From Aquilaria yunnanensis (lineage: Eukaryota > Streptophyta > Magnoliopsida > Malvales > Thymelaeaceae): a stretch of 64,000 nucleotides of DNA. The DNA is taken from assembly GCA_039654915.1 (NCBI GenBank), contig CM077594.1, positions 91,278,893-91,342,892 of the forward strand. The letters are read 5' to 3'. Both the position numbers and the translations under genes were made by a program. The notes under the pieces are model-generated. The model made no database searches. It saw only the letters and a program-made list of their open reading frames with translations, and was not told where the DNA came from. Every line of letters begins with the position of its first letter. Within the stretch, counting starts at the first letter, position 1. Positions 9,801 through 48,131 of the stretch are shown piece by piece.

Positions 9801-12110
9801 ACTAATATATATGAGTTCCAACTCTTAGGGTTTTTTTATTCAGATATATGGATTAATGGATCTATGTGTTTATGGAAAAAAAAATTATAATTTAGGTTAA
9901 AAATTAATTTATCTCAATTATTTTTCTAGAAAAGAAAAAAGAGAAGTGAAAATCTCTTAAATTTCAACTGATTTTTGCCAAGCCTTAGCAATATTAATTT
10001 CTTGATTAGTGATCATAATATTAGTTATTTATATATAAAAAGAACCTTAAATAAAATTTATAATTTTTTTCATAAAAAAATACATGAACAAAATTTAAAA
10101 AATAATGGCCAAGTAGTGCAAGTGAGTAGTGACGGCTCCCCCTCGGTTTATCTTCAGGCAACGATTGAGCCGTCGCTTAGTTAAAAAAGTTTTAAAGTCT
10201 CGCTGGCTTTCTCATTGCCAAACAAAATGCAACTCTCTTTCATAAAAACAATGCCAAATTGCCATGCCCTTGAAGACCTTGGATGGGGATTTCAAAATTA
10301 GAGAGGCTAATGTGATAATGGGAGTGAGTTGATCTTCTTCGCACACTCGACAGTGGCCTAGGAAACACCGGGAAGTTCCAATCTACTTGACCGGTTGGGG
10401 ATTTATCTTCAATTATTCTTCGATTTGTAATCAATTTGTTATTGACTTCTCTTCGATTTTTCTTCGATTTGTGTTCAATTAGAGTGAGCATCGGATTCGG
10501 AAAAGAAATCAAAGTTTCTTAACGACCAGAAAGAAAATGATCAAGATTGCAAATGCTGAGCAGCCATAGTCTTCTCTTCAGATGAGGTAGGGGAATTCGA
10601 TTCCTGGCACATCCATCTCTCCTCCACTATAAACCAAATCCGCACCCTACTACCATTTCTGGGTTTCGGTTGAACTCGAAACCCATCGCTGCTAATTTCA
10701 ACATCTCTGAGCTGTGGAGCTTTCTAGGTACTACAGTTACATCATCGTCTCTGACAGGCCTTTTGTGGGTTTCCAAGATACTTGTACCCTCAAAATCCTC
10801 AAAGGGGATTTAGTGGTCCATCGATGGCTCATCTGATGCTATTGTCAATTCTCTCGCTTTCCTTCTATCTCGCCTCTATGTTTTTGCGCAATGGTTGTTC
10901 TTGTCTTGCGTTTTATATTCTAGGAATTCAAATAGCTAAACTGGTAAATCTGTCGTAGAAACTAGAACCTGGATTTTGTACTTCTATTGTTATTATTTGT
11001 TAAATTTGTTTTTCCGTGGTACACATTATAAGGACTTAGGCGCATCTTTCTACATTTAATTTGCAATGGATTCTCAACTAGTTATGTTTATTTTAGTTTA
11101 GTAGTTCTACCAACACTTAGTCAGGCTGTTGAATCCATAACAAAATTACCGTCTGGCTATAATAACTAGGCTCTATGCTAAATGCATTGCTTTTGGTATT
11201 TGTTGAATTTCTCATCTTAAGTGCTGCTGACCCTTTGGTGTTAATGTTTTTCTATTGAATCTGGAATTCCTATCCGCCTTTAATTTGAAAGCTGTTGTCT
11301 TGGAGTAGGACACTGCTGTCATTGGCAACTGATTACTTCTAAATTTATAATGTTATACTCCCTCTGTCCCATAAATTTTGATACATTTGAATTTTTGTTG
11401 TATTTTGACTCAATTTTATTCATATTATTGTTTATTAAAAAATATATATTTAGAAACTACATATCTTGAATTATCATTCATATATAAAAATTTTGTATTT
11501 ATATATTAAAATATTAAAAATAAAAAATTATAGATTAATTTCAAAAAACAAGTTGAGCAAAATTTTTGGGACAGAGGGAGTAACTGATTTTCTGACATTG
11601 ACGTGATCAAATTACTGTCTTCCTATAGTAATTATGCTGTATGCTAAATGCATTGCAGTTAAGTTGGCATCTGTACAGCAGGTGTGATATATTATTATTG
11701 TAATTCTGTATTATTATTATTCTTTATCTTTTATCATAGTACCAACCATGTGGCCCTCATGATATTAATTATGTTCATCCAAGAAAGCAGTTGCTGCCAA
11801 TGAGTAAAATCTTTTGGCTGAATTGCCAATGGCATCCCTATGGCAAGCAAGTGGGAAGACTCTACCAACTGCACCAAAGTCTAACAGTTAGGTACTATTC
11901 ATCACCGAACTAGGTGACATTAGGAAAGTATTTTCTAACATGTACTTGTATTACTACTATTAAGACTGTACATTTGTGAAAATACATTCTGATACTGTAT
12001 GCGTGTGTATGTGTAAAATATTTCAGATTAATGGAAATAACTTATGTTTATGGTTTTCAGAAGTGTATGGTATTACTTTGGATTAATGGGAACTAATTTT
12101 GTTTCTGGTT
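9801..12110. other. interior of CACTA element 2, possible captured host DNA
   Basis: From about 10200 the base composition becomes more genic. Stretches such as 10230-10560 and 10600-10880 look like former exon sequence, but every frame is short and I recognise no protein. It also contains one more subterminal-type motif (10128-10180, GTGACGGCTCCCCCTCGG) and the MITE at 11358. No function assigned. Confidence 0.3.
11358..11580. mobile_element. Stowaway-type MITE with TA duplication
   Basis: Terminal inverted repeats CTCCCTCTGTCCCATAAATTT and TTTTGGGACAGAGGGAG enclose 223 bp of AT-rich sequence, flanked by TA on each side (11356-11357 and 11581-11582). This is the standard structure of a Tc1/mariner-derived Stowaway element. 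Confidence 0.92.
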
Positions 12111-13710
12111 TGTGGCAACATCGGGTTTTCTGGGAGTCGCCACCAATCAGTTTTCGCTTAGGTCGATTGGACACCTAAAATATTGGTCTGCAAGAGTTCG
12201 GGGGTTCGGGAGTACGGTTACGTTAAAACAACTTTGTTAAAACGCCCAAAAATTGGTACCTTAGTTGATTTCAATTTTGTCTTGCTTTGCTTTAAAAATA
12301 TTCAGTTAATGTTCTAAACAGAAATTTTAACTGAATTAGTCGGATGTGGATTTTTGGTAATTAATTTGTATAGAATTTTATACTTCCGAACCATGGACTC
12401 TGCCGAGTCATTTGGACACGGAAGATTTGATTCCGAACCATGGACTCTGCCGAGTCATTTGGACACGGAATTTGGTGAAATTTTAAATAATTTAATCCAT
12501 ATTGTAAACATGGATTTTTATCTTTGTATTTATTTAATTTATTTAATTAAAAAGGTTGATATTTTTCCAAACCGTAGATCCTGCCGGATCATCCGGATAT
12601 GGAAATTAATTTAAATTTAATTTATTATTAATTATTTAATTAATTATTATTAAATGGTACACATAGACTATATTTTTCAAAAATGTAATTTTTTATTAAT
12701 TATGTCAAAACTAATTTTATATTTATTAAAAAAAAGGGCTATTTAATTTAATCATATAATTAAGCTTAGCATTAATTTCTAAACTAATTCATAACTTTAA
12801 TATTCCAAACAAAACAAAAAAAGTAAAACAATGGCTAATTTGTAAATCAGAACAATATTAGAGTTTTGAATAGACAAATCAAATAAATCCAGGGGTAAAT
12901 TATTTATTAAAAATGTTTATCTAACCTAATCATGCAATTATACTTAATCTTATTTTTTTTGTTTCTTCATGCTCATAATCAAATGAACAAAATAATAAAT
13001 AAATAAATAAATAAATGAAAATAAACATTGGTGACCAAATTGTAAATCAAAACAACCTCAAAGTCTCAGACTAACAAATCAAATAAATCCAAGGACAAAT
13101 TATTTATTAAAATTACCTATCTAACTTAATCATATAATTAAGCTTAATGTCAATTCCTAAGTTAATTTATGCCTTTAATTAGCTGAGCAAACAAAAAGTA
13201 TAATAGAAAATAAGTAAATTAATGACTTAATTGTAAATTAAAACAAATTAAAGTCTCAATTAGACAAATCAAATAAACCCAGAAGCACAAATTAAAATTA
13301 TGTCGAAATTATGGACTTTCATAACTGGGTCAATAACGAGCCGATTTGCGATCCGGGTTTCGTTATTCAATTTTAATTTTGGTTTATTTATTTATTTTAA
13401 ATAAAATCCAAACCATGGATTCTAACCGAACCATCTGGATATGGACTTTTGTGATTTACTACTGTCCTAAATTCATTTTTAGAATTTTATTAAATCCACG
13501 CGGAATGATTTTTTTAGATGCATCGTGAATATTAAATAATAATTAAACTATCCCAAAATTAAATAGATAAACAAACTAAGAAAAAAAAATTCAGATTATA
13601 TTCCTACATCAATTTTATGGCTAAATTTAAATGAATGGTCAAAATAGACAAAATAAACAAAGGAACTTAAAGCAAAGAAAACAATAAAACTTGCTGAGTG
13701 GTTAATCTGC

Positions 13711-13742
<32 letters not shown>

Positions 13743-14627
13743 ATATGTTAGTGACTTACATGATCAAAATAAAGAAAAGCTAAGGTCTAAACAGAATTTT
13801 ACCAAAAAAAAAAAACGTAAAAGAATAGTCTTTGACTTCTGGTCAAAAATTAAAATAAAAAAAAAATAAATAAAAAACGTATGGCGTTTACTGCCTTCTT
13901 CTTTCTTCAGGCATCGTCCGACGAGCACGGCAGAGGACGACGGCTAGGGGGCGCTGGAGCTGGGTGGCTGGTGGCGCGACGCAAGGGTGATCTGGCTGGC
14001 GGGTGAAGGCGAAGCTGGTGGCGAAGGCGAAGCTGGCGGTGGCTGTCGGCAGCTGGAGACGGCTGGAGGTGTGATCGACGACGGCGAGCTCGGACGGGCC
14101 GTCGACGCAGAGGAGGAGGCCCATCCAGCAGAGGAAGGGCATCGGGCTGGAACAGAGGGGGCGAAAGGGAAGAGAGAGGGAAGAAAAGGGAGAGATGAGA
14201 GAATGAGCGAAGATAGGGAGAAGCCGAGAGAGAAGAAGAGAGAAATTTTTTTTTTTCGAAGAGAGCCCCCGTGAGAGGGAGAGAAGATAAGATTTTCTCT
14301 CCAATGATAGAGGCCTAGAGCCTTCTAAAAATATCCCAGCCTTTCCCCAGGATGGCTCAGCTGGGGAAGGAATTTTTTTGTTTTTAATTTTAATTTTTTT
14401 AATTAATTAATAATTAGTTAAGAAATAATTAATAATTAATTAATATTTCTAATACACACATACAGATATATATGTATACCTATATATATATTTTAACTAA
14501 CACCATATGACAAAAATGTCCCCCACTAAACTAATAATATATTATTTTTGTTAAATTAATTTTTTTAGTTAATAATTTTTAATTAATTAATTTTTTTTTA
14601 ATAGTCGGACGAAATTGGGTGTCAACA
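12111..14627 (-). repeat. 3' LTR of the 17-kb element (left copy)
   Basis: 2517 bp. It contains several copies of a hairpin motif (12386-12470, 12566-12603, 13408-13441), long AT-rich stretches, an A-run at 13713-13738, and a GC-rich block at 13900-14280. By eye it differs from the right LTR by roughly a dozen substitutions plus length changes in homopolymers and short AT tracts. Open frames in the GC block (138 codons minus, 95 codons plus) are kept in both LTRs but look like by-products of composition. Confidence 0.95.
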
Positions 14628-14640
14628 GCTGCCCCCCTTT
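14628..14640 (-). other. polypurine tract
   Basis: On the minus strand AAAGGGGGGCAGC abuts the TGTTGACACCC start of the 3' LTR. This is the expected position and composition for the plus-strand DNA primer of an LTR retrotransposon and fixes the element's orientation as minus. Confidence 0.85.
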
Positions 14641-14731
14641 GCATGCTTCATGGGACATGATGTATGCAAAGTCGTTATCAAATTTCGTCCGGCTTAGCTA
14701 GGCATTGAGAATTTTCTCGTCGCCTAAACTC

Positions 14732-16205
14732 AGAGGTTAAGGAATCTTCCTTAGAGCCTCTGCGATAGGAACTCTCCTATCATTAAAGGGAAAATTTGAT
14801 AATTTTGAGGTTAAGGGTCCTACCTTAGAACCTCGACGATAGGAACTCTCCTATCGTTTGAAGGAAAATTGATGATTTTGAGGTTAAGGGTCCTACCTTA
14901 GAACCTCGACGATAGGAACTCTCCTATCGTTTGAAGGAAAATTGATGATTTTGAGGTTAAGGGTCCTACCTTAGAACCTCGACGATAGGAACTCTCCTAT
15001 CGTTTGAAGGAAAATTGATTGTTTTGAGGTTAAGGGTCCTACCTTAGAACCTCGACGATAGGAACTCTCCTATCGTTTGAAGCAAAATTGATGATTTTGA
15101 GGTTAAGGGTCCTACCTTAGAACCTCGACGATAGGAACTCTCCTATCGTTTGAAGGAAAATTAATTATTTTGAGGTTAAGGGTCCTACCTTAGAACCTCG
15201 ACGATAGGAACTCTCCTATCGTTTGAAGGAAAATTGATTGTTTTGAGGTTAAGGGTCCTACCTTAGAACCTCGACGATAGGAACTCTCCTATCGTTTGAA
15301 GGAAAATTGATTGTTTTGAGGTTAAGGGTCCTACCTTAGAACCTCGACGATAGGAACTCTCCTATCATTTGAAGGAAAATTGATTGTTTTGAGGTTAAGG
15401 GTCCTACCTTAGAACCTCGACGATAGGAACTCTCCTATCGTTTGAAGGAAAATTGATTGTTTTGAGGTTAAGGGTCCTACCTTAGAACCTCGACGATAGG
15501 AACTCTCCTATCGTTTGAAGGAAAATTGATTGTTTTGAGGTTAAGGGTCCTACCTTAGAACCTCGACGATAGGAACTCTCCTATCATTTGAAGGAAAATT
15601 GATTGTTTTGAGGTTAAGGGTCCTACCTTAGAACCTCGACGATAGGAACTCTCCTATCGTTTGAAGGAAAATTGATGATTTTGAGGTTAAGGGTCCTACC
15701 TTAGAACCTCGACGATAAGAACTCTCCTATCGTTTGAAGGAAAATTGATTGTTTTGAGGTTAAGGGTCCTACCTTAGAACCTCGACGATAGGAACTCTCC
15801 TATCGTTTGAAGGAAAATTGATGATTTTGAGGTTAAGGGCCCTACCTTAGAACCTCGATGAATGAAAATTGATAATTTTGAGGTTAAGGGTCCTACCTTA
15901 GAACCTCGACGATAGGAACTCTCCTATCGTTTGAAGGAAAATTGATGATTTTGAGGTTAAGGGCCCTACCTTAGAACCTCGACGATAGAAACTCTCCTAT
16001 CGTTTGAAGGAAAATTGATGATTTTGAGGTTAAGGGCCCTACCTTAGAACCTGGACGATAGGAACTCTCCTATCGTTTGAAGGAAAATTGATGATTTTGA
16101 GGTTAAGGGTCCTACCTTAAAACCTTGATGAATGAAAATTGATGATTTTGAGGTTAAGGGCCCTACCTTAGAACCTCTAACGATAGGAAAGGTTCTATCG
16201 TTGTA
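14732..16205. repeat. tandem array A, 73-bp unit
   Basis: About twenty copies of a 73-bp unit, many nearly identical. Each unit holds two dyads: GATAGGAACTCTCCTATC, and GAGGTTAAGG...CCTTAGAACCTC. Shortened units occur near 15850 and 16125 where the first dyad is lost. The array lies in the element's 3' untranslated region, between LOG and the polypurine tract. Confidence 0.97.
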
Positions 16206-16780
16206 AGATGGACTGAATGATTGATTGATCTCGAGGCAAAGGTTCCATCCTTAAAACCTCGGATTGATTGATTGATCTCGAGGCAAAGGTTCCATCCTTA
16301 AAACCTCGGATTGATTGATTGATGTCGAGGCAAAGGTTCCATCCTTAAAACCCCGGATTGATTGATTGATGTCGAGGCAAAGGTTTCATCCTTAAAACCC
16401 CGGATTGATTGATTGATGTCGAGGCAAAGGTTCCATCCTTAAAACCCCGGATTGATTGATTGATGTCGAGGCAAAGGTTCCATCCTTAAAACCTCGAATT
16501 GATTGATTGATGTCGAGGCAAAGGTTTCATCCTTAAAACCCCGGATTGATTGGTTGATGTCGAGGCAAAGGTTCCATCCTTAAAACCTCGAATTGATTGA
16601 TTGATGTCGAGGCAAAGGTTCCATCCTTAAAACCTCGGATTGATTATTGATGTCGAGGTAAAGGTTCCATCCTTAAAACCCCGGATTGATTGATTGATCT
16701 CGAGGCAAAGGTTCTATCCTTAAAACCTCGGATTGATTGATTGATTTCGAGGCAAAGGTTCCATCCTTAAAACCTCGATG
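16206..16780. repeat. tandem array B, 47-bp unit
   Basis: About twelve copies of GGATTGATTGATTGATGTCG followed by a GAGGCAAAGG...CCTTAAAACC(C/T)C dyad. The dyad is homologous to that of array A, so B appears to be a shortened derivative of the same ancestral unit. Confidence 0.95.
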
Positions 16781-18510
16781 ATGAAAATTGATTGTTTTTG
16801 AGGCAAAGGTTCCATCCTTAAAACCCAGATAATGAAAATTGATTGTTTCGAGGCAAAGGTTCCATCCTTAAAACTCCGATAATGAAAATTGATTGTTTTC
16901 GAGGCAAAGGTTCCATTCTTAAAACCCTGATAATGAAAATTGATTTTTTTCGAGGCAAAGGTTCCATCCTTAAAACCCCGATGGTGAAAATTGATTATTT
17001 TCGAGGCAAAGGTTCCATCCTTAAAACCCCGATGATGAAAATTGATTGTTTTCGAGGCAAAGGTTCCATCCTTAAAACCCCGACAATAGGAGCAGTCCTA
17101 CTGTTGATTGTTTTCGAGACAAAGGTTCCATCCTTAAAATCCCGACGATAGGAGCAGTCCTACCGTTGATTGTTTTCGAGACAAAGGTTCCATCCTTAAA
17201 ACCCCGATGATGAAAATTGATTATTTTCGAGGCAAAGGTTCCATCCTTAAAACCTCGGATTGATTGATTGATCTCGAGGCAAAGGTTCCATCCTTAAAAC
17301 CCCGATGATGAAAATTGATTATTTTCGAGGCAAAGGTTCCATCCTTAAAACCCCGATGATGAAAATTGATTGTTTTCGAGGCAAAGGTTCCATCCTTAAA
17401 ACCCCGATGATGAAAATTGATTATTTTCGAGGCAAAAGTTCCATCCTTAAAACCCCGATGATGAAAATTGATTATTTTTGAGGCAAAGGTTCCATCCTTA
17501 AAACCCCGATGATGAAAATTGATTGTTTTCGAGGTAAAGGTTCCATCCTTAAAACCCCGATGGTGAAAATTGATTATTTTCGAGGCAAAGGTTCCATCCT
17601 TAAAACCCCGATGATGAAAATTGATTGTTTTCGAGGCAAAGGTTCCATCCTTAAAACCCCGACAATAGGAGCAGTCCTACTGTTGATTGTTTTCGAGACA
17701 AAGGTTCCATCCTTAAAATCCCGACGATAGGAGCAGTCCTACCGTTGATTGTTTTCGAGACAAAGGTTCCATCCTTAAAACCCCGATGATGAAAATTGAT
17801 TATTTTCGAGGCAAAGGTTCTATCCTTAAAACCTCGGATTGATTGATTGATCTTGAGGCAAAGGTTCCATCCTTAAAACCCCGATGATGAAAATTGATTA
17901 TTTTCAAGGCAAAGGTTCCATCCTTAAAACCCCGATGATGAAAATTGATTGTTTTCGAGGTAAAGGTTCCATCCTTAAAACCCCGATGATGAAAATTGAT
18001 TATTTTCGAGGTAAAAGTTCCATCCTTAAAACCCCGATGATGAAAATTGATTATTTTTTAGGCAAAGGTTCCATCCTTAAAACCCCGATGATGAAAATTG
18101 ATTGTTTTCGAGGCAAAGGTTCCATCCTTAAAAGCCCGACAATAGGAGCAGTCCTACTGTTGATTGTTTTCGAGACAAAGGTTCCATCCTTAAAATCCCG
18201 AGGATAGGAGCAGACCTACCGTTGATTGTTTTCGAGACAAAGGTTCCATCCTTAAAACCCCGATGATGAAAATTGATTATTTTCGAGGCAAAGGTTCCAT
18301 CCTTAAAACCTCGGATTGATTGATTGATCTCGAGGCAAAGGTTTCATCCTTAAAACCCCGATGATGAAAATTGATTATTTTCGAGGCAAAGGTTCCATCC
18401 TTAAAACCCCGATGATGAAAATTGATTGTTTTCGAGGTAAAGGTTCCATCCTTAAAACCCCGATGATGAAAATTGATTTTGAGGCTAAAGAGCTTTCCTT
18501 AGGACCTCGA
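16781..18510. repeat. tandem array C, 51-bp unit with higher-order structure
   Basis: About thirty copies of a 51-bp unit (GATGATGAAAATTGATTGTT, then the GAGGCAAAGG...CCTTAAAACCCC dyad). A distinctive pair of variant units with ACAATAGGAGCAGTCCTACT recurs at about 17082, 17662 and 18138, showing larger segments of several hundred bp were duplicated. Because 51 is divisible by three, the array yields long open frames on the plus strand that are not genes. Confidence 0.95.
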
Positions 18511-19026
18511 GCGAAATTTATATGAAAGCAATTGAAATTGGAATAATTTTCTTCGAAAGTGTGAATTTTCATAATAGGTGAGTGCAAAAATTTAAACTTC
18601 GATAAGATGAGTGAATCTTGATGTTAACAATAACACTGACAAATTATGTAAAGGGAACGGATGTTTGGAATCAATATTCAAGGTTCATCTAATATTTTCT
18701 TCAGTAAATATAGATTCCCTTATGAGATATGTCATCCAAATAAGGTTAAAGCTTAACTAGCCCAAAATGTTATGCCTAGTAGACCTAATAGGATGCGTCT
18801 CAAGAGTAATAAAAATTACTCTTTACTCAGCCATTCCAACCTAAAGGCATTGTCCCATGGTTTTAATATCAGCATGGACGAAACTATCTTATAAGATAAC
18901 GAAATTCCCTGAAAATAAAAACTGAAATACGGAAGAAAATGCTGATAATTAAAACTAAAGGATAAGAAAAACGGATCAGATCGCTTCTTTCTTCCACAAT
19001 ACTTCAACAGGGTGAGTAGAGGACCA
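18511..19026. other. LOG 3' flank
   Basis: Non-repetitive sequence between the LOG stop codon (minus strand) and the tandem arrays. It should hold the 3' untranslated region and polyadenylation signal of LOG if LOG has its own transcript. No gene seen. Confidence 0.4.
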
Positions 19027-19656
19027 TTATGGGAGTGAACTGGTCGGGAAAGACTGTCGTGTCCAGTCTATCTGAATCATTGCTGGATCTGGTTCAGGAA
19101 CAAAAGCTTGTATTTTATCTAGCAATTCTTCAGCAGTTGTTGCGGATATTATGATTCGCCGTGCCACTCTTGATATGAAATTCTTTTGCATAGCATAATC
19201 CATAAAAGCTATCAGACCTGTAAAGAAATTGTTAACATTTAAAAGCCCAATGGATTTCTTATGCAAATTAAGTTGGGCCATGGAAGCAATTTGAAAGACT
19301 TCTCCCAATGTGCCAAAACCACCTGGTAGAGCGATAAAAGCATCAGCATTTAAAAGCATTTGTAACACACGCTCTTGTAAATTTTTAACCACTAATTCTT
19401 CTCCAATCGTGCCCCCAGAAATAAATTTCAGAGGTCCAGGGATAATGTCCAGAACTTGACTTCCTCCTAGAGATGCTGCTGATGCTACACCTCCCATTAA
19501 TCCGACACTACCTCCTCCATAAACTAAATGTATTTTTCGCTCAGCTAATACTCTACCCAAATGGTTGGCTGCCTTTAAATACTCTTCATCTTTTCCAGGA
19601 AAAGCCCCAGAAAATACACAAATACTTCGGGATTTACGAGTTGGGGTTTTCTCCAT
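19027..19656 (-). CDS. LOG-like: LOG-like cytokinin riboside 5'-monophosphate phosphoribohydrolase, intronless, inside LTR element
   Basis: LOG enzymes release active cytokinin bases from their nucleoside monophosphates in one step, in the cytosol and nucleus. The 209-residue ORF shows ICVFSGAFPG near the N-terminus, the nucleotide-binding VYGGGSVGLMGG (about residues 46-57), a conserved Arg in NLQERVLQM, and the hallmark PGGFGTLGE (PGGxGTxxE), followed by a typical LOG C-terminal half (KSIGLLNVNNFF, FISRVARRIIISA). Length is normal for the family. An upstream ATG at 19743 lies beyond the TATA element at 19686-19695, so the Met at 19656 is preferred. Cellular plant LOG genes usually have several introns and this copy has none, which suggests capture through an RNA intermediate. 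SGA replaces the usual CGS near the start. It is on the element's coding strand, downstream of the three cysteine-rich genes. Activity is unproven. Confidence 0.88.
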   Translation of the reverse strand: MEKTPTRKSRSICVFSGAFPGKDEEYLKAANHLGRVLAERKIHLVYGGGSVGLMGGVASAASLGGSQVLDIIPGPLKFISGGTIGEELVVKNLQERVLQMLLNADAFIALPGGFGTLGEVFQIASMAQLNLHKKSIGLLNVNNFFTGLIAFMDYAMQKNFISRVARRIIISATTAEELLDKIQAFVPEPDPAMIQIDWTRQSFPTSSLP

Positions 19657-19685
19657 TCCTATCCTTACCCTTGTGAGAAAAGAGG

Positions 19686-19695
19686 ATATATTTAT
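19686..19695 (-). promoter_or_regulatory. TATA box of LOG cassette
   Basis: Minus strand CTCTATAAATATATCC, 30 bp upstream of the ATG at 19656. The surrounding sequence (CTCTTCATCTCTATAAATA) is homologous to the segments upstream of the cysteine-rich genes at 20860 and 21685. The 5' leader would be only a few bases long unless transcription starts elsewhere. Confidence 0.65.
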
Positions 19696-19734
19696 AGAGA
19701 TGAAGAGATAAGGCAATAATTTTATTTTCAAGAA

Positions 19735-20210
19735 TGGATACATTATTGCCAGCTATTCACAGTAGTCACGAGTATGACTTTGGTCAGGTATGGGTACACT
19801 ATCGTTAAAAGAGGAGGAAAATTTTCAAAATAGCTGCTAGCATGTACAGTAGTCATTACTGTAGCTTACGTCAAGAGTAGGTACGTGATTGTTGGAAGAA
19901 AAGGAAAATTTTAAAAAGTGGCAACTATATACAGTAATCATAACTGTATCTCATGTCAGGAGTGGGTACATTATTGGGAGGATAATTTCAAAAGCGACAG
20001 CTAGCATGTACAGTAATCGTGACTTTGGTTCACGTCAGGAGTGAATACATTATTACCAAAAGGGGAGGAAAATTTCAAAAGCGACAGCTAGCGTGTACAG
20101 TAATCGTGACTTTGGTTCACGTCAGGAGTGGATACATTATTACCAAAAGGGGAGGAAAATTTCAAAAGCGACAGCTAGCATGTACAGTAATCGTGACTTT
20201 GATCCTCGTC
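19735..20210 (-). repeat. amplified upstream repeat (about 87 bp, five units) with TGACG motifs
   Basis: Units start near 19782, 19869, 19955, 20033 and 20120. Each holds a GTCAGGAGTGGGTACATTAT-like start, a GGAGGAAAATTTCAAAAGCG-like middle and a CTAGC(A/G)TGTACAGTAATCGT end. Read on the minus strand the unit junctions give TGACGTAA (19866-19873) and CCTGACGTG (20031-20039, 20118-20126), the core bound by TGA-class bZIP factors in as-1-type elements. The same sequence type occurs singly upstream of the cysteine-rich genes at 20880-20960 and 21700-21810, so this looks like an upstream promoter segment multiplied in front of LOG. Function is inferred. Confidence 0.72.
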
Positions 20211-20249
20211 TTCCACTGGCTTTGCGTCCAGTAATGGCTTCAATGCTTT

Positions 20250-20798
20250 CTATGAATCGGTGATTTGCATCTCATCTAGCTTTCTCACAAACTGGCAAAC
20301 AGGGTCGTTTAAGGTTAGATTCCCAAGACTGTAACGTTCTCGTTCTTTTTGGAGAATTATCCATAATCCAACAACCTCAAATTGCACTATTCCGCAAGAA
20401 TGCGCTTCAAGAACCTCTCGAATATCTTCTAGAGATTCCTTACGCAAGCCATTCTTAATGAATCTTATTCTATCATTACGATTTCTGGTGATCACTCCTG
20501 GAGAACGACATTTATTGCCGCAAATCCACCATCCACAATTATGACAAACGCCTAGCCTCTTTGCTCTTCTTTTTTTGGCATAAGCGCTTTTACCAAAGCC
20601 GGGCATACGGGGAAAGAACGCTTCTGAAACTTCACCAGCTGAACGAACCTTAGCTTCAATTAGCCACCGCACATTATCAGGAATGCCTTTGTGCATAAAT
20701 ACTCTGAATCGTTCACATCTAGCTTGATAAATCTTTTTAAGAACATTTATTGGGAAGGAAGGAAAATACTTTCGTAGGGCGGAAAGAGAAGACTCCAT
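20250..20798 (-). CDS. virus-like cysteine-rich nucleic-acid-binding protein, copy 1
   Basis: 182 residues. The N-terminal 70 residues are helical-looking (ALRKYFPSFPINVLKKIYQA). The centre has GKSAYAKKRRAKRLGVCHNC, an arginine/lysine-rich stretch running into a C-x2-C-x4-C-x3-C knuckle. The C-terminal 80 residues are novel to me (ends VCQFVRKLDEMQITDS). The central pattern is that of the cysteine-rich nucleic-acid-binding proteins encoded near the 3' end of carlavirus and vitivirus genomes, which act in nuclei, bind nucleic acid, and in some viruses suppress silencing or alter host transcription. An upstream Met at 20813 exists; 20798 is chosen because it aligns with the starts of copies 2 and 3. 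Copy 1 has Trp and Gly at two knuckle positions where copy 2 has Arg and Asp. A plant zinc-knuckle protein of independent origin is the alternative. Confidence 0.72.
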   Translation of the reverse strand: MESSLSALRKYFPSFPINVLKKIYQARCERFRVFMHKGIPDNVRWLIEAKVRSAGEVSEAFFPRMPGFGKSAYAKKRRAKRLGVCHNCGWWICGNKCRSPGVITRNRNDRIRFIKNGLRKESLEDIREVLEAHSCGIVQFEVVGLWIILQKERERYSLGNLTLNDPVCQFVRKLDEMQITDS

Positions 20799-20853
20799 TG
20801 ATGAAGGAGGCAAAGAAAGAAATTAGTGATTGTAGGAAACGAAAATAACTAAC

Positions 20854-20866
20854 ACATATTTATAGT
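20854..20866 (-). promoter_or_regulatory. TATA box of cysteine-rich gene copy 1
   Basis: Minus strand CACTATAAATATG, about 60 bp upstream of the ATG at 20798 and preceded by TTATCCCTTTCAT. Homologous to the LOG promoter segment and to that of copy 2. Confidence 0.6.
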
Positions 20867-21014
20867 GATGAAAGGGATAATGCGTTAATTACACTTACAG
20901 AAGCAAGTACATTATTGTCAAAAGAAAAGACAAATGACAGCTTATATGTACAGGAATCATGACCGTGGCTCTCATCTTCCACTGATTTATGTCCAGTAAT
21001 GGCTTCAATGCCTT

Positions 21015-21563
21015 CTATAAGTCGGGGATTTGCTTCCCATCCAGTTTCCTTACAAACTGACAAACAGGGTCGTTTAAAATCACATTCCCAAGACTGTAAC
21101 GGTTTCGTTCTTTATGGTAAGTTCTCCATAAACTGATAATTTCATATTGCACAAATCCGCAAGAATGCGCTTCAAGAGTCCCCCGGATATCCTCCAGAGA
21201 TTCATTACGCAGGCCACTCTTGATGAATTTTCTTTTATCTTCGCGATTTTTGGTGATCATCCTTGTGGACCGGCATTTAGTGTCGCAAATCCATCGTCCG
21301 CAATTATGACAGACACCTAGCCTCTTTGCTCTTCGCTTCTTGGCATAAGCGCTTTTACCAAAGCCGGGCATACGGGGAAAGAACGCTTCTGGAACTTCAC
21401 CAGCTGAACGAACCTTAGCTTCAATTAGCCACCGCACATTGTCAGGAATGCCTTTGTGCATAAAGACTCTAATCCTTTCACATCTAGCTTGGTAAATCAT
21501 TTTAAGAACATTTATTGGGATGGAAGGAAAGTATTTTCGCATGGCGGAAAGAGTAGAATCCAT
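21015..21563 (-). CDS. virus-like cysteine-rich nucleic-acid-binding protein, copy 2
   Basis: 182 residues, collinear with copy 1 without gaps and clearly its closest relative (the central block FPRMPGFGKSAYAKKRRAKR is identical). The knuckle reads CHNCGRWICDTKC. Arg/Lys-rich KKRRAKR is a probable nuclear localisation signal and RNA/DNA contact. Spacing to copy 1 (start to start) is 765 bp, and the duplicated unit includes the upstream promoter segment, so gene and promoter were copied together. No stop or frameshift. Differences from copy 1 are scattered substitutions that preserve length, which is what selection on the protein would leave, though a recent duplication would also do so. Confidence 0.72.
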   Translation of the reverse strand: MDSTLSAMRKYFPSIPINVLKMIYQARCERIRVFMHKGIPDNVRWLIEAKVRSAGEVPEAFFPRMPGFGKSAYAKKRRAKRLGVCHNCGRWICDTKCRSTRMITKNREDKRKFIKSGLRNESLEDIRGTLEAHSCGFVQYEIISLWRTYHKERNRYSLGNVILNDPVCQFVRKLDGKQIPDL

Positions 21564-21680
21564 TGATAAAAGAAGAATTTGAGAGAAGAGATGAAGAAAT
21601 CAGTTATTGTAGGAAACTGAAATAACCGATTATGAGAGTCAGAGAGTATTGCATCCGCTACTTAACCGGAAAGAAGAACA

Positions 21681-21693
21681 CGCATTTATAGCG
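21681..21693 (-). promoter_or_regulatory. TATA box of cysteine-rich gene copy 2
   Basis: Minus strand TCGCTATAAATGCG, preceded by TTATCCCTTTCA as in copy 1. It lies about 120 bp upstream of the ATG at 21563, farther than in copy 1, because of an insertion-like segment (21600-21670) containing TTAACCGGAAA. Confidence 0.55.
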
Positions 21694-21851
21694 ATGAAAG
21701 GGATAACGTGTCGATTACACTTAGGGGAGCATGTACATCTGTCAAAAGAAAATGCAAACTTTTCCAAATATAACAAACTGTATGTACAGTAATTGTGACT
21801 GTGACTCACATCTTCCACTGGCTTTACATCTAGTAACGGCATTAACGGCTT

Positions 21852-22400
21852 CTATGAGTCGAGGATTTGCTTCCCATCCAGTTTTCTTACAAGCTGGCAA
21901 ACAGGGTCATTTACAGTCAGATTTCCGAGACTGTAACGGTTTCGTTCTTCATGAAAAATGCTCCATAAACCAAGAAGTTCACGTTGCACAGATCCACAAG
22001 AATGCGTCTCAAGAGTCAATTGGATATCATCCAACGAGTCCTTACTCAGGCCATTCTTAATGAATCGTATTTTATCTTCTCGATTATCAGAGATCATCCC
22101 TAAAGAACGACATTTAGTATTACAAGTCCACCGTCCACATTTATGGCAGACTTGTAACCTTTTCGCTCTTCGCTTTTTGGCATAAGAGCTTTTGCCTATA
22201 CCAGGCATGTGAGACACAAATGCCTCTGGGATTTCACCTGCCAGACGAACCTTGGCTTCGATTAACCACCGCACATCTTCAGGGATTCCTTTGTGCATCA
22301 GAACTCTTAATCGTTCACAGCGAACTTGGTAGATCTTTTTGAGAATGTTCATTGGGAGATAAGGGAAATACTTTCGCAAGGCGGAAAAAGTAGGATCCAT
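21852..22400 (-). CDS. virus-like cysteine-rich nucleic-acid-binding protein, copy 3
   Basis: 182 residues, the most diverged of the three but still gap-free against the others. The conserved core reads GKSSYAKKRRAKRLQVCHKC with the same C-x2-C-x4-C-x3-C spacing. The C-terminal motif NDPVCQLVRKLDGKQI is shared. It is the copy nearest the 5' LTR. No clear TATA box lies within 150 bp upstream, so it may be expressed from the LTR or from a weaker promoter. The strong retention of cysteines, basic stretch and exact length across three diverged copies argues that all three were maintained as proteins. Relationship to carlavirus/vitivirus proteins is by motif only. Confidence 0.7.
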   Translation of the reverse strand: MDPTFSALRKYFPYLPMNILKKIYQVRCERLRVLMHKGIPEDVRWLIEAKVRLAGEIPEAFVSHMPGIGKSSYAKKRRAKRLQVCHKCGRWTCNTKCRSLGMISDNREDKIRFIKNGLSKDSLDDIQLTLETHSCGSVQRELLGLWSIFHEERNRYSLGNLTVNDPVCQLVRKLDGKQILDS

Positions 22401-25400
22401 TTTCTAGGAGGAAGTAAAAGAAAGAAGGGGTGAAGAAATCAGTTATTATGGGCAACTGAGAAAACCGACTTGAGAGTCACGAAGTACCGTATCTGCCGTT
22501 TAACCGGAAAAGTGGATCCTACTTCATTTTGATGTGATAGATATTTTTTATATTCCATCGAGCTGACGTCGATCCAGTCCTCGATTATTAAATCCATTGT
22601 CCGCTTTTGACAAATTTTCAACGACAATATTTCTTGATGTCTGCCTTATCTTTGACTATCTCTTATCTTGGATGCTGCTAAGCTGGCATCAATCCTGTCC
22701 TTCCAGGTGTAGCCTCAATTATTGAATCAATTGCCGGGCTTTTGACATATTGTCTACCTTATCCTTGAATTCCTGATGCGGGTTGGTCCCGCATATTAGC
22801 TGTGTATCCAGTGATAGATTGGTAAGAGCTGATGACATTGAGATCTCAGCTTATACTGCTGTAACTGTGCTGTGAATGTGATTCCTGTTTGGTCATTGTC
22901 ATGTAAAAGCCATGCATGCATGATGTGAAATGCATGAATGCAAAGCATGTGTAATTGATGGTTCTTTTTTATTTTTATTTTTATTTTATTTTTTTTATTT
23001 TTATTTTTGGATTGATCTAGTTCTTTATGTCTTTGCTTTACTGGATCTTCTTTGTGATTGCCTTCTTGGACTATCATTGAATCTCTTTATGCTTTCCAGC
23101 TTTTGTTCACTGCCTCAAAAGCCCAACTCTTTTCAAAATCCTCTTTCTTTGACTTGTTCTTTGAATTTTGGCCTCAATTTCTTTAAAGTTGTCCCACCTC
23201 ATAATTTATATCTCTTTTGAATACTCATCCTTTGTCATGGATTTCATACTATCAGAGGCTTAACTTTCAATGTTTCATTGTCCCTTTTCTTGTGGCCGTG
23301 TCGACACTTGTTTACCCCCATGTTACAGTCCGAATGATTGCTCTTCCTTAGACTCAGGTTCTGATCCATAAGACTTGCCCCCTTGTCTATTGAGCTTCTT
23401 TCTTGGCAGTACTTTTCTTGCGCTTAGTAGAGACTACTTTGCCCCCTTGATTATGGTGTTTATGTGGAAAGAGATATCATCTCGCCTTTGATTTAACAGA
23501 AGGTTGAGGATTTCTAGACCTTTGTGATGGCACTTGATCGTAAATTTCTCTTACAAGAACCACATCTTATTAAAGAAAGACTCAAGCTATCTCCTTACTT
23601 TTAAGTCTACATACATTAATGAATAATGGTTTGGCCTTAAAGAAAAACTTTCATCAATTTTCAAAGCTTGACAAAGTAATTTACGGTCTTTGTTTTCAAT
23701 TAAAATGTCCTGCCATTCTTCCCTTTCCAACTCGAAGACATAAACTGTGCAAGGCAATAAGGTAGAAACATGATTCACAATAATAGCCTTTTAACTGAAT
23801 GAGGATGATATCGAGAGGTAACTGTTAGGCGTGAGGAAAATTAAGTTTGAATATTTTTTTTTGTTGCAGTCTTTTAACTGAATGAGAATGATATTAAGAG
23901 GTAAATATTAGATCTGAGTAAAGTTAAGTTTGAGTGGTGTGAAAGAAGGGTCTTTTAATACTACTCGTGAGCAGATCTGATTATGGTAAAAAAATTAATA
24001 GTGATGACCTCAAACTTGCCACGTTTTCTAGAAAGTTGGACCTCATCTGTTGCCCCCCAACTATCGTAATCTTTATGTACACTTGGTTTGAGGGTTACTT
24101 TTGTTTTCTAAACCGCCTTTGCAGGTTTTCAGTCTAGAATCCATAGCTCACTTTTTTCTTTTTTTCTTTTTTTTTTTTTACTTTTGCTCTAGTTTGAGCC
24201 CTTTTTCCTTTTTTTTTTTTGTTTTTTTTTTTTTTAGCTATGGTGATGACATACTTGATAACTCTCTTGAAGTGAGATGACTCAAGTGGCCTTGCTTGCT
24301 CGTGCTTGTTCTCAGTTCTTTTTGGTTTTGAATTTTTCCTTGTTGGCTTTTTGATGGAAGGGATGAACTTTTTCCTTTTCGGAGTTTTTGTTACAGAGAA
24401 CCGAGATCATAGCCTTCTTGAAATGAGATGATTCAAGTGGCCTTACTTGCTTGTGTTTACTCTCAGTCTCTCTTTTTTTGGTTTTGAATTTTCCCTTTAA
24501 TGGCCTTTGATGGAAAGCATGAACTTCTTTCCTTTGTTGGAATTTGTGTTGCGGAAAACTGAGAATCTTTTTTTTTGTATTGAGCATTTGTGAGAATTGG
24601 GAGGCCACTGAAGTCATTTAATATGAGAGCTACCTTGTTTGGAAGCTAACCCCAGACTTCTTGCAAGGATGTTGATAACCACTATGAATTCTTTTTTTTT
24701 TAGAGTTGGGGTGCAACATATGAAATCCTTCTTACTAGATTTGACAGCACTTTCAAGATCGCCACTATTAAATCTCCCTTAACTTTTTTATTTTCACCCA
24801 CGAGTAGTATCGTTTTCAAAGCAAAGTATGATAGCAATAATGGATAGTATAATGGAAAGGAGTGAGAGATGGATGTAAAAACGGAATTTTTTGTAAGAAG
24901 TGGTAGAATGTGTAGGTGTAATAATTGAATTTTTGGTAAAAATTGGTAGAATGTGTAGAAGTAATAATGGGATTGAAAAGTGGTAGAATGCACACGCAAC
25001 ATCTTTTTGTTAGAGAACAAAAAGAATTACCGGTTGTCAAAAAGTAAAGTGTGATGGCAATAATGGATAGTATAATGGCAAAGAGTGTAAAAATGGAAAG
25101 TAGTAGAATGCACGCATTACATCTTTTTGTTGTACCAGAAAAAGAATAGCAGGTGTCCATTTAACAAAGACTACACCCTAGATTCTGGACTAAATCTAGG
25201 AGATTTTTACTATTAAATTACTTTTGCAAGCTTTCAAAGATACAAGTTTATTCAAAGGATTCCCTGTCATTCAAAAGTGTGTGCGGACTGTTAGGTCAGA
25301 TCTGACTTGGAGCCCTTCCAAAATTAATGTAATTCCAGCTCAAAATCTTCACTTTCAATTACCAATCACATCATGGCCTAGCAACTTAGACTCGACCAAC

Positions 25401-26573
25401 TGTTGGACCTTGAGTTTCAGCACCACAGACTTTTCAGTTACATTTGGGATTTGGGTCACACCAACTTGGAAGAGAAGGTCACTTGGTCTTTGCTACTATT
25501 GATATAGATGATAGCAGAATGCCTTCTTCAGCAAAGACTGTGATTAACTTTCCTTCAAAAATGAATTTCATTTTTTTGGTGTAATAAGGAGGGAATTGCT
25601 CCGGCCATATTTTCTATTTTGGACTCTATATCTATGAGACGTCCTTCGGTTTGTTCTGCCATTAGTCTTGTTTGGAGCCGAGTTGGATATCGGTGTTAAG
25701 GTCCAATTTTACCTTTTTAAAGGAATATTTATTTTATTAAATTCTACATGTATGTGATTGATGCAATGAATGCATGCATGCAAAATAAGATTATGTTTTT
25801 ATCAGACTTTGTATGTACGTGATTAATGCAATGCATGCATGCAATGAGTGAGTTTGCTTATCCATTATCGTGGAACTTCAAAACTTTTAGTTGTCATTAT
25901 AAAGACCAAAAAGTTAGCATAATTTGATGCGTGGTTTTGATGCATGAAGAATAATTGCACAGAACGGAAGTATAACAAAAGAAAAATAAGGTTATTAACA
26001 AGTTAAATAGTAATTAACAATTCATGAAGAATTATGGATAAACAAGTTAAAACCATACGAAGAAAAGTGTATAGTAACAACACAGCATAACAAGGATATG
26101 CTTATGGTGTTGGTAAAAATGGTAGAAATTCTATGGTCAGTTCTATGGTTAAGTGGGGAGTTCTATATGCATAAGGTGGCTTATCAAAAAGGCAAGGGAT
26201 AGTTCCCGAATCCCGTCACTAAATCATAGTGACGGCCCGATTCCTTACCCTCTAGGGTTAATGTAAGGAATGGATTAATTCGAGTCGTAGCTTTTCGTGG
26301 GCCCATGCAGAGACTAACCGTCTCAGAAGGCAATACACTACTTTGCTACTTTGAAACCGGTGAAGGCTTGGAGACCATGGCCTCACAAGGACAACAACAC
26401 CAATTCCGCTTAGAAGGAATCCTGTTCGATTTGAGGAAGCTCGGGTATAGAGCTTCATTTTGTGAATGCATAATGCATGTTTTCGCTAAGTAAATATAGC
26501 ATATAAAAATCCACATAAAAAGAAGCAAAGCAAAACAAAACAAATCAAGTTTTAGGCTCGACTCACTAACCGT
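22401..26573 (-). other. 5' leader/interior of the LTR element without recognisable genes
   Basis: 4.2 kb between the primer-binding site and the first cysteine-rich gene, where gag-pol would lie in an autonomous element. Frames are short and none shows gag, RT or integrase motifs. Local duplications are visible: 23785-23935 (about 87 bp, twice, TTTTAACTGAATGAG), 24300-24560 (about 170 bp units, TTGGTTTTGAATTTTCC), 24830-25110 (TGGTAGAATG repeats) and 25745-25850 (about 78 bp, with GCATGCATGC). Long T-rich runs occur at 24150-24235. A minus ORF of 101 codons at 24312-24617 is only lysine-rich repeat translation. It may be a decayed gag/intron region or unrelated filler. Confidence 0.5.
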
Positions 26574-26593
26574 GTCCCCAGTGGAGTTGCCAA
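26574..26593 (-). other. primer-binding site
   Basis: Two bases after the 5' LTR end (minus strand ...GTTGCCACA) the sequence reads TTGGCAACTCCACTGGGGAC. It starts with the TGG complementary to a tRNA CCA tail. From memory this type resembles the tRNA-Arg-like site of Tat/Ogre elements. The exact tRNA should be checked against a tRNA set. Confidence 0.78.
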
Positions 26594-26595
26594 GC

Positions 26596-29123
26596 TGTGG
26601 CAACGTCGGGTTTTCTGGGAGTCGCCACCAATCAGTTTTCGCTTAGGTCGATTGGACACCTAAAATATTGGTCTGCAAGAGTTCGGGGGTTCGGGAGTAC
26701 GGTTACGTTAAGACAACTTTGTTAAAACGCCCAAAAATTGGTACCTTAGTTGATTTCAATTTTGTCTTGCTTTGCTTTAAAAATATTCAGTCAATGTTCT
26801 AAACAGAAATTTTAACTGAATTAGTCGGATGTGGATTTTTGGTAATTAATTTGTATAGAATTTTATACTTCCGAACCATGGACTCTGCCGAGTCATTTGG
26901 ACACGGAAGATTTGATTCCGAACCATGGACTCTGCCGAGTCATTTGGACACGGAATTTGGTGAAATTTTAAATAATTTAATCCATATTGTAAACATGGAT
27001 TTTTATCTTTGTATTTATTTAATTTATTTAATTAAAAAGGTTGATATTTTTCCAAACCGTAGATCCTGCCGGATCATTCGGATATGGAAATTAATTTAAA
27101 TTTAATTTATTATTAATTATTTAATTAATTATTATTAAATGGTACACATAGACTATATTTTTCAAAAATGTAATTTTTTATTAATTATGTCAAAACTAAT
27201 TTTATATTTATTAAAAAAAAGGGCTATTTAATTTAATCATATAATTAAGCTTAGCATTAATTTCTAAACTAATTCATAACTTTAATATTCCAAACAAAAC
27301 AAAAAAAGTAAAACAATGGCTAATTTGTAAATCAGAACAATATTAGAGTTTTGAATAGACAAATCAAATAAATCCAGGGGTAAATTATTTATTAAAAATG
27401 TTTATCTAACCTAATCATGCAATTATACTTAATCTTATTTTTTTTGTTTCTTCATGCTCATAATCAAATGAACAAAATAATAAATAAATAAATAAATAAA
27501 TGAAAATAAACATTGGTGACCAAATTGTAAATCAAAACAACCTCAAAGTCTCAGACTAACAAATCAAATAAATCCAAGGACAAATTATTTATTAAAATTA
27601 CCTATCTAACTTAATCATATAATTAAGCTTAATGTCAATTCCTAAGTTAATTTATGCCTTTAATTAGCTGAGCAAACAAAAAGTATAATAGAAAATAAGT
27701 AAATTAATGACTTAATTGTAAATTAAAACAAATTAAAGTCTCAATTAGACAAATCAAATAAACCCAGAAGCACAAATTAAAATTATGTCGAAATTATGGA
27801 CTTTCATAACTGGGTCAATAACGAGCCGATTTGCGATCCGGGTTTCGTTATTCAATTTTAATTTTGGTTTATTTATTTATTTTAAATAAAATCCAAACCA
27901 TGGATTCTAACCGAACCATCTGGATATGGACTTTTGTGATTTACTACTGTCCTAAATTCATTTTTAGAATTTTATTAAATCCACGCGGAATGATTTTTTT
28001 AGATGCATCGTGAATATTAAATAATAATTAAACTATCCCAAAATTAAATAGATAAACAAACTAAGAAAAAAAAATTCAGATTATATTCCTACATCAATTT
28101 TATGGCTAAATTTAAATGAATGGTCAAAATAGACAAAATAAACAAAGGAACTTAAAGCAAAGAAAACAATAAAACTTGCTGAGTGGTTAATCTGCAAAAA
28201 AAAAAAAAAAAAAAAAAAAAATTGAATATGTTAGTGACTTACATGATCAAAATAAAGAAAAGCTAAGGTCTAAACAGAATTTTACCAAAAAAAAAAAAAA
28301 CGTAAAAGAATAGTCTTTGACTTCTGGTCAAAAATTAAAATAAATAAAAAATAAATAAAAAACGTATGGCGTTTACTGCCTTCTTCTTCCTTCAGGCGTC
28401 GTCCGACGAGCACGGCAGAGGACGACGGCTAGGGGGCGCTGGAGCTGGGTGGCTGGTGGCGCGACGCGAGGGTGATCTGGCTGGCGGGTGAAGGCGAAGC
28501 TGGTGGCGAAGGCGAAGCTGGCGGTGGCTGTCGGCAGCTGGAGACGGCTGGAGGTGTGATCGACGACGGCGAGCTCGGACGGGCCGTCGACGCAGAGGAG
28601 GAGGCCCAGCCAGCAGAGGAAGGGCATCGGGCTGGAACAGAGGGGGCGAAAGGGAAGAGAGAGGGAAGAGAAGGGAGAGATGAGAGAATGAGCGAAGATA
28701 GGGAGAAGCCGAGAGAGAAGAAGAGAGAAATTTTTTTTTTTCGAAGAGAGCCCTCGTGAGAGGGAGAGAAGATAAGATTTTCTCTCCAATGATAGAGGCC
28801 TAGAGCCTTCTAAAAATATCCCAGCCTTTCCCCAGGAAGGCTCAGCTGGGGAAGGAATTTTTTTGTTTTTAATTTTAATTTTTTTTTAATTTTTTTAATT
28901 AATTAATAATTAGTTAAGAAATAATTAATAATTAATTAATATTTCTAATACACACATACAGATATATATGTATACCTATATATATATTTTAACTAACACC
29001 ATATGACAAAAATGTCCCCCACTAAACTAATAATATATTATTTTTGTTAAATTAATTTTTTTAGTTAATAATTTTTAATTAATTAATTTTTTTTTAATAG
29101 TCGGACGAAATTGGGTGTCAACA
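26596..29123 (-). repeat. 5' LTR of the 17-kb element (right copy)
   Basis: 2528 bp, near-identical to 12111-14627. Differences seen include A/G at position 10 of the LTR, single substitutions near 26708, 26792, 27077, 28391, 28398, 28467, 28610, 28669 and 28753, a shorter A-run near 28196 and an added T-run near 28880. At roughly 0.5 percent divergence the insertion is recent. Confidence 0.95.
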
Positions 29124-29185
29124 TGATTGTTGGAGTTGTATGGAATGAATGCGTATAGTGGAGGTTTGGTGACGGAATTGTGCTA

Positions 29186-29691
29186 GACAAGAGTTTTTGA
29201 AGTAACGATGGCTATTAGTCACAAATTATTACTAAGTAGCGACGGCCATGTGTCACTACTTGTTATGCGTCACTAATTAGCGACGGTCATTCATCACTAA
29301 CTAGCGATAGTTATCCGTCACTAACTAACGACAACCATTTGTTACTAACTGGCGATGGCCATGCGTCACTAACTAGCAACGGTCATGCGTCAATTAACAA
29401 TGGTCGTGCGTCACAAATTAGCAATAGGCAACCGTCACTAAGTTAATGACAGCTAACTGTCACTATGTAGTGACTTCCAACCATCGCTAAATCTCCGGTA
29501 ACTCACCTGTGCTGAAAAATTAGTGACCATCACTATTGCGATTGTTCGACATCGCTAATTTGCAAGGCAGCCGTCGTTAGGAAATTTGCTGTGAGGGAAT
29601 TAAAAACGGACTGATTAGTGATGGCCTGCCATTGCTAAAACCAAATTAGTGACGCCAATGTCTGTTGCTAAATCAACTTTTTCTTATAGTG
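29186..29691. repeat. right subterminal repeats and terminus of CACTA element 2
   Basis: About fifteen copies of AGCGACGGNCATNCGTCACTAA-like units, then TTTTTCTTATAGTG as the terminal inverted repeat. They match the motif class at 8868-9800 and close the element split by the LTR retrotransposon. Confidence 0.8.
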
Positions 29692-48090: not shown

Positions 48091-48131
48091 GGAGAAAGCA
48101 CTAAACCATTTCTCCTAACATTGGAAACAAC

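Follow-up and report, generated by a model that had tools for sequence, protein, structure and literature searches.

Long terminal repeat (LTR) retrotransposons of the Ogre/Retand branch of the Tat lineage (Ty3/gypsy) carry an aRH domain between RNase H and integrase, and 57% of Ogre elements contain a plant mobile domain (PMC6317226). Here we describe an element of Aquilaria yunnanensis that occupies positions 12111-29123 (17 kb, minus strand) of a 64,000-nucleotide stretch of contig CM077594.1, which we call the window, and that carries on its own strand three zinc-finger-type genes of the carlavirus nucleic acid-binding protein kind (NABP; N1 to N3) and one LOG-type gene. The family to which it belongs shares with the Ogre lineage a 5' open reading frame (ORF), here with a possible relationship to the plant mobile domain, followed by gag, protease, reverse transcriptase (RT), RNase H and the aRH domain before integrase, as well as very large size, long LTRs and tandem repeats; it differs in having three NABP genes and LOG in sense orientation past the integrase, an arrangement that the consulted passages of the same survey do not describe for Ogre (PMC6317226). 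That survey set a minimum of 250 codons for the extra ORFs that it counted (PMC6317226), and all four cargo genes, being shorter than this, therefore lie outside it.

LOG-type (YgdH) domains have been reported in LTR elements of Citrus and Populus, which resemble the present family in being plant gypsy elements with such a domain and differ in that the section on their LOG domains mentions neither an NABP nor a promoter (PMC9289625). An Ogre-related element of Phalaenopsis is likewise large and retains an accessory ORF (an AlkB demethylase), but this is a single gene of another kind, with activity demonstrated in vitro (PMC9289625). Retand elements with TRP28 ORFs share the long region between pol and the 3' LTR, the accessory ORFs and the tandem repeats; their ORFs, however, are mostly antisense, and their sense ORFs encoded no known domain (PMC11963269). 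A review of additional ORFs treats sense ORFs after pol as env-like and, in the text searched, mentions neither cytokinin nor "nucleic acid binding" (PMC7264820). The first-pass annotation of the window, a model's reading of the sequence, had stated that no described element has this combination of genes. For the pairing of NABP with LOG this stands: the literature searched, with subscription papers mostly outside it, contained neither an LTR element with an NABP gene nor any pair of NABP and LOG. It does not stand for LOG-type domains alone, which were already known in LTR elements (PMC9289625). The element described here represents a Tat/Ogre-type family whose accessory block is under selection and unusual in what it contains, present here in a young derivative that lacks gag-pol. 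Two Athila-like elements with LOGL4-like ORFs were reportedly named by Steinbauerova in 2011.

A young derivative of a Tat/Ogre-type family

The window copy is a young gag-pol deletion derivative of a Tat/Ogre-type element, with its cargo between pol and the 3' LTR. It has the features of an LTR retrotransposon: a 5' LTR at 26596-29123 and a 3' LTR at 12111-14627 (both minus strand, from alignment of the pair) with TG...CA termini; a primer-binding-site (PBS)-like stretch, TTGGCAACTCCACTGGGGACA, at 26573-26593 (minus strand), just inside 26596; a polypurine tract at 14628-14642 (minus strand), adjoining the 3' LTR end at 14627; and a target duplication of 5 bases, TGGTT (12106-12110) and TGATT (29124-29128), with one mismatch. 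Because the PBS-like stretch adjoins 26596 and the polypurine tract adjoins 14627, the element lies on the minus strand, where its genes follow one another in the transcription order N3, N2, N1, LOG. The PBS-like stretch resembles the PBS of Ogre/Tat elements (further criteria for Ogre are the RT phylogeny, a PBS for tRNA-Arg and a gag-pol intron); the 64-kb window contains no tRNA gene for comparison with it, and positions 12000-29300 gave no Rfam match at gathering score. Between the two LTRs there are 14 substitutions in 2515 aligned bases and a few indels (K80 distance 0.0056, or 0.56%), which dates the insertion to some 0.2-0.4 million years ago if substitution rates of 1.3e-8 and 7e-9 per site per year are assumed. 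The near-identical LTRs of about 2.5 kb, the PBS and polypurine tract, and the 5-bp flank match with one change had all been proposed in the first-pass annotation and were all recovered. Between LOG and the 3' LTR, arrays of 73-, 47- and 51-bp tandem repeats, absent from that annotation, take up most of positions 14733-18478 (no strand assigned).

The same annotation described an LTR element without gag-pol, with neither polymerase nor integrase, and this is an accurate description of the window copy. Compared with a relative on C7, it has no match to RT, RNase H or integrase and keeps only two stubs, both on the minus strand: the first 29 codons of gag (25603-25689) and, fused to them, a remnant of the protease/G-patch region (25509-25611). 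Large retrotransposon derivatives (LARDs) are large elements with LTRs and no functional gag-pol. The window copy is like them in all these respects, but its interior is not non-coding, as it contains four intact coding genes of a constrained family.

The description does not extend to the family. The C7 copy (25.6 kb, at 33441-33467 kb), which has LTR ends and leader in common with the window copy, carries, ahead of N3 and in its orientation, gag-pol domains in the order 5' ORF (DUF7745), gag, protease-like, RT, RNase H, second RNase H and integrase, and then three NABP genes and LOG. Its 5' ORF of 486 codons matches DUF7745 (E 4e-56) and, slightly below the cut-off, the plant mobile domain (34.2 bits versus 34.9), and its protease region has a weak aspartic-protease match and a G-patch. 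A single ORF contains RT_RNaseH (127-229), RVT_3 (294-404) and H2C2 (494-551), each above its cut-off, and rve (570-641), which at 28.3 bits is under its cut-off of 32.6. The aRH domain diagnostic of Tat/Ogre Ty3/gypsy elements is thus present in this relative, between RNase H and integrase, and on the domain order and content of the C7 copy we assign the family to the Tat/Ogre-type Ty3/gypsy elements. A gag-pol-bearing Tat/Ogre relative, which the first-pass annotation had recommended seeking, therefore exists, but its gag-pol frames are separated by stops and we do not claim that it is active.

Linkage of gag-pol to the cargo recurs across the genome. A query of 2965 bases that runs from integrase into N3 was matched over its full length (once starting at base 2) and at 97-100% by 38 of the 40 places scored, its own included, and these are spread over C1-C8; gag-pol and the NABP block therefore belong to one element. 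The junction of the gag and protease stubs is in turn common to copies C3b, C2c and C6 and is whole in all 40 genome places scored, the window among them, and copies C3a, C5 and C2a keep gag-pol remnants of other kinds. These differing remnants indicate that gag-pol was lost in at least a few ways while the NABP-LOG block stayed. Within C2c there is also another gypsy element (L020:993-4511, minus strand) with an open gag-protease-RT-RNase H frame of 1173 codons, to which the 26-36% RT matches in C2c belong; the gag-protease part of that gypsy element is present once more at L019:3982-6276 (minus strand). Same-strand pairs of stub junctions 12.5-15.1 kb apart occur at C1:105.008/105.024, C5:23.109/23.122, C5:95.681/95.695 and C7:75.473/75.487 Mb, and at L017:6989 an N3 starts about 150 bp past an LTR; these are perhaps tandem copies sharing LTRs, or recombinants.

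A 1390-base piece of the LTR has 43 matches in the whole genome, comprising 12 pairs 12-29 kb apart and single matches. We analysed eight copies, namely the window copy (W) and seven of the LTR pairs (C7, C3a, C3b, C2a, C2c, C5 and C6). NABP genes and LOG are present in 8 of 8, with neither order nor strand differing between copies; there are three NABP genes in seven copies and two in C3b, and all eight insertions are young (LTR K80 0.004-0.014, with only part of the LTR compared for some). The annotation had named copies without cargo, or a separate insertion nested within this one, as grounds for regarding the genes as accidental; neither was encountered in the eight copies, and a nested insertion is accordingly disfavoured. 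An intact N3 also lies between the LTR matches of a further pair, at C7:42.09-42.11 Mb.

The gene combination extends well beyond these copies. The counts of N3 and LOG places come from best-scoring lists and so indicate many intact genes rather than the proportion intact; unscored first-pass candidate numbers (8245 NABP, 4044 LOG, 3222 and 3301 junctions) were not used as counts. All 150 scored N3 places are without a stop. Two LOG searches, taking the best 150 places of each, had none in common and together gave 300 distinct places, 295 of them without a stop (149 and 146). Listed LOG genes lie within 8 kb of 34 of the 150 N3 places, in 34 of 34 cases on the same strand and 1.76-2.96 kb downstream; one more listed pair, on C37, is 16 kb apart with the order reversed. 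A listed LOG was also near 4 of the 38 integrase-N3 places, always on the same strand and 2.8-6.0 kb from the point where the query match begins. One of the two LOG searches used an Arabidopsis LOG query aimed at host LOG genes, and all 150 best-scoring rows span this query in one piece, 146 without a stop. In all eight loci fetched from it, LOG is preceded on its own strand by a full-length NABP gene, which identifies these loci as element copies and led us to reject them as host LOG genes.

The NABP and LOG genes and their upstream regions

N3 (21852-22400), N2 (21015-21563) and N1 (20250-20798), all on the minus strand, are the three intact 182-codon, virus-type ORFs of the first-pass annotation, and each matches Pfam Viral_NABP and Carla_C4 above the curated cut-offs. 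In an alignment of 65 members, made up of N1-N3 together with 62 relatives, 58 match Viral_NABP and 56 match Carla_C4 at E <= 0.001. A basic stretch, KKRRAK, lies beside a Cys cluster in which most residues are invariant or nearly so among the 65 members, a basic-plus-Cys layout that also occurs in carlavirus NABPs. The element genes share both Pfam families with carlavirus p12/NABP and differ from it in being DNA-borne, 182 amino acids long, triplicated in tandem and situated inside a retrotransposon. Collections of phages and plasmids contained no NABP relative, and 62 pattern matches in the viral_contigs collection yielded 0 confirmed. Carlavirus p12 has been described as a nuclear transcription activator and/or silencing suppressor (PMC7588395), and by analogy the element NABPs may act in the same way. 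Non-retroviral integrations known from plants include a betaflexivirus replicase in cucumber (PMC3136472).

The LOG-type gene (19027-19656, minus strand) encodes 209 amino acids from Met30 of a longer reading of 238 codons that starts at 19743. It matches Pfam Lysine_decarbox and TIGR00730 above their cut-offs and the Arabidopsis chains 2a33 (E 1e-49) and 1ydh (E 7e-47). LOG phosphoribohydrolases, which release active cytokinin, are defined by the motif PGGxGTxxE and a conserved Arg, both of which are kept here with one change inside the motif (E118G). The element LOG may accordingly be expected, from its relatives, to make active cytokinin. The longer reading crosses a TATA block and is out of frame in C3a, C3b and C6, and Met30 (19656) is therefore most likely the start; the LOG ORF claimed in the first-pass annotation is intact, but its start is moved to this Met.

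The NABP-LOG cargo appears to be an accessory block under selection, one that functions in the element rather than being there by accident and that is kept when gag-pol is lost. Pooled over pairwise comparisons of copies, which reach dS values up to 0.5, the ratio of nonsynonymous to synonymous substitution rates (dN/dS) is 0.29 for LOG from Met30 (0.32 for the long reading), 0.31 for N1, 0.33-0.34 for N2 and 0.27 for N3. The two wrong frames give higher values (0.49 to 2.38), leaving the true frame lowest, and third codon positions carry the largest share of the changes (48-53%). For 12 of 12 chosen pairs, which are not independent, nonsynonymous changes were below expectation (p 0.047 to 6e-9, with the synonymous share set by hand at 0.235). 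A dN/dS below 1 was the support that the annotation had asked of its cargo-bearing family, and together with the repeated gene order in 8 of 8 copies and the many intact ORFs it bears that proposal out.

Predicted promoters, in the form of TATA blocks on the minus strand, lie upstream of N2 (TTATCCCTTTCATCGCTATAAAT, 21684-21706), of N1 (20858-20880) and of LOG (19690-19711, related to that of N1). A pattern modelled on these blocks has three matches in the whole 64-kb window, one ahead of each of the three genes. Across the copies, a TATA motif, which by itself is expected often in such AT-rich DNA, is found in a similar setting upstream of N2 in 7 of 7, N1 in 8 of 8 and LOG in 8 of 8. Although their proteins are unrelated, LOG and N1 share a 66-column upstream block reaching up to the TATA box, with a score attained by 0 of 500 shuffles. 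The upstream regions of LOG and N2 also beat 500 shuffles, but along another stretch, and likeness to the upstream region of N3 was not clear (220 of 500 shuffles were as good for LOG-N3, 18 of 500 for N1-N3). Farther upstream of LOG, 87-bp repeats (19812-20236, minus strand) contain ACGTCA/TGACGT motifs, the core of plant bZIP sites, and could form an enhancer array. The TATA blocks of N2, N1 and LOG probably act as promoters of their own.

Relatives in other plants and exchange between copies

N3 has 278 relatives at E <= 0.001, and those named among the 120 listed are from Populus, Xanthoceras, Acer and Orobanche. In a tree of these 120 and the copies with open frames (frames with stops or frameshifts were dropped), two Sapindales proteins pair, two Orobanche proteins pair, and two Populus proteins group with further proteins. 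The A. yunnanensis NABPs form one clade with two other proteins (0.993), so the triplication looks lineage-specific and the family older. The 120 listed relatives of LOG begin with one at 91%, followed by others at 49-63%. Reevesia is represented among them by many loci, and Paulownia, Diplodiscus, Xanthoceras and Populus by some; the LOG tree was built from 116 of these 120 best matches (without P0122, P0123, P0127 and P0203), the window LOG and one canonical LOG.

The sizes of the carrier sequences in the two match lists (116 distinct for NABP, 97 for LOG, typed by hand) were compared, with the proviso that equal size need not mean the same sequence. Above 2 kb, four sizes are shared (2128, 4511, 8723 and one chromosome), whereas 120 shifted offsets share 0.22 on average and never more than 2. 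When all sizes are counted, the two lists have 7 in common, compared with an average of 2.6 and a maximum of 7 for the shifted offsets, which is no real excess. The shared sizes above 2 kb hint at NABP-LOG linkage in other plants.

Within A. yunnanensis, the N2 slot of C3a is occupied by a gene (L010:627-1175) that is nearest to N1 (88%), and between the window and C7 copies dS is 0.07 for LOG and 0.23 for N3. This unequal divergence and the N1-like gene in an N2 slot point to exchange between subfamilies or slots.

Explanations for the accessory block

To account jointly for the observed anatomy, gene order, gag-pol linkage, coding constraint, shared upstream block and recent movement, we favour, with somewhat more confidence than doubt, a Tat/Ogre-type family with a host-acting NABP-LOG block, of which the window copy would be a recent non-autonomous derivative. 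The accessory block, with up to three NABP genes and one LOG on the sense strand between pol and the 3' LTR, would have N2, N1 and LOG driven from their own related TATA blocks. The window copy would have retained its cis-acting ends and this block through the deletion of gag-pol, and would presumably be copied by proteins of its gag-pol-bearing relatives. NABP would serve in nuclear transcription activation and/or silencing suppression and LOG would provide active cytokinin, and the two together would hold the cell dividing with weaker silencing, a state that would favour transcription of the element and its passage to daughter and germ cells. A role of the cargo in cell division or silencing is, by analogy with the known relatives, the mechanism that we judge most likely.

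Several observations weigh against this explanation. Among the eight copies, 16 of 23 NABP frames are open throughout while stops or frameshifts interrupt the other 7, and LOG from Met30 is intact in five (W, C7, C3b, C6 and C2c, the last judged from joined pieces) and broken in three (C3a, C2a and C5), so single copies do not need these genes. Single-pair dN/dS reaches 0.86, mostly in close pairs with few changes, and the N1 pair C3b-C6 shows eight nonsynonymous and no synonymous changes. N3 is without an upstream TATA motif in seven of the eight copies, the window copy alone having one. The similarity of NABP to viral proteins is remote (E about 1e-4 to 1e-8) and does not set its direction, and the structure model of N3 (mean pLDDT 63.8, pTM 0.27) is too poor for a fold search. 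The E118G change falls within the LOG motif, and LOG scores 91.9 of the 300 bits required by the NCBIfam LOG equivalog NF058542, a model made for prokaryotes.

The broken frames would also be expected if the cargo were a passenger, host and virus sequences that were picked up accidentally and then multiplied along with a successful master copy, and the 98-100% likeness of the top matches is what a recent burst would leave. We nevertheless consider this improbable, as pooled dN/dS is about 0.3 at dS up to 0.5 and lowest in the true frame, NABP relatives occur in several plant families with the Sapindales, Orobanche and Populus pairs each close, and Reevesia has many LOG loci of the element type. 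Constraint could instead be host constraint, had the plant adopted the LOG and NABP genes of the element, and so large a number of intact LOG frames within a single genome would fit; but intact frames are dispersed over C1-C8, and those in the eight copies sit on young insertions, which, although no single conserved locus was looked for, makes such a takeover very hard to credit. A possibility that deserves more weight, although we think it rather unlikely, is that the accessory proteins serve copying itself, NABP as a chaperone or as a packaging or nuclear-import factor for element RNA or cDNA and LOG in some other nucleotide-hydrolase use. Retention of the block in derivatives without gag-pol would then reflect a cis-acting benefit, and the KKRRAK stretch beside the conserved Cys cluster in the 65 aligned members is in keeping with it. 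The separate TATA blocks suggest, to the contrary, expression apart from the genomic RNA, and we know of no packaging role for LOG.

Returning to a host-acting block, we tentatively entertain a broader proposal that we still hold to be doubtful: that in plant Tat/Ogre-type retrotransposons an ancient, largely vertically kept NABP-LOG block with private promoters reprograms host transcription, silencing and cytokinin, and is useful enough in cis that derivatives drop gag-pol yet keep the block. In its logic such a block would be comparable to the accessory genes of retroviruses. If this is correct, a high-copy plant retrotransposon bears a hormone-activating-type enzyme and an RNA-virus-type regulator under selection, and transposon manipulation of host cell fate and silencing becomes directly testable in a plant counterpart of the retroviral case. 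On the practical side, intact LOG-type frames that lie outside ordinary genes, here in their hundreds, can find their way into the gene counts of a plant genome.

Elsewhere in the window, a CACTA-type transposase fragment (Transposase_21) lies at 4264-4710 on the minus strand. On the plus strand, pieces of a copper amine oxidase at 48105-48953 and 50347-51489 (Cu_amine_oxidN2/N3 and the enzyme domain) apparently represent a host gene with an intron.

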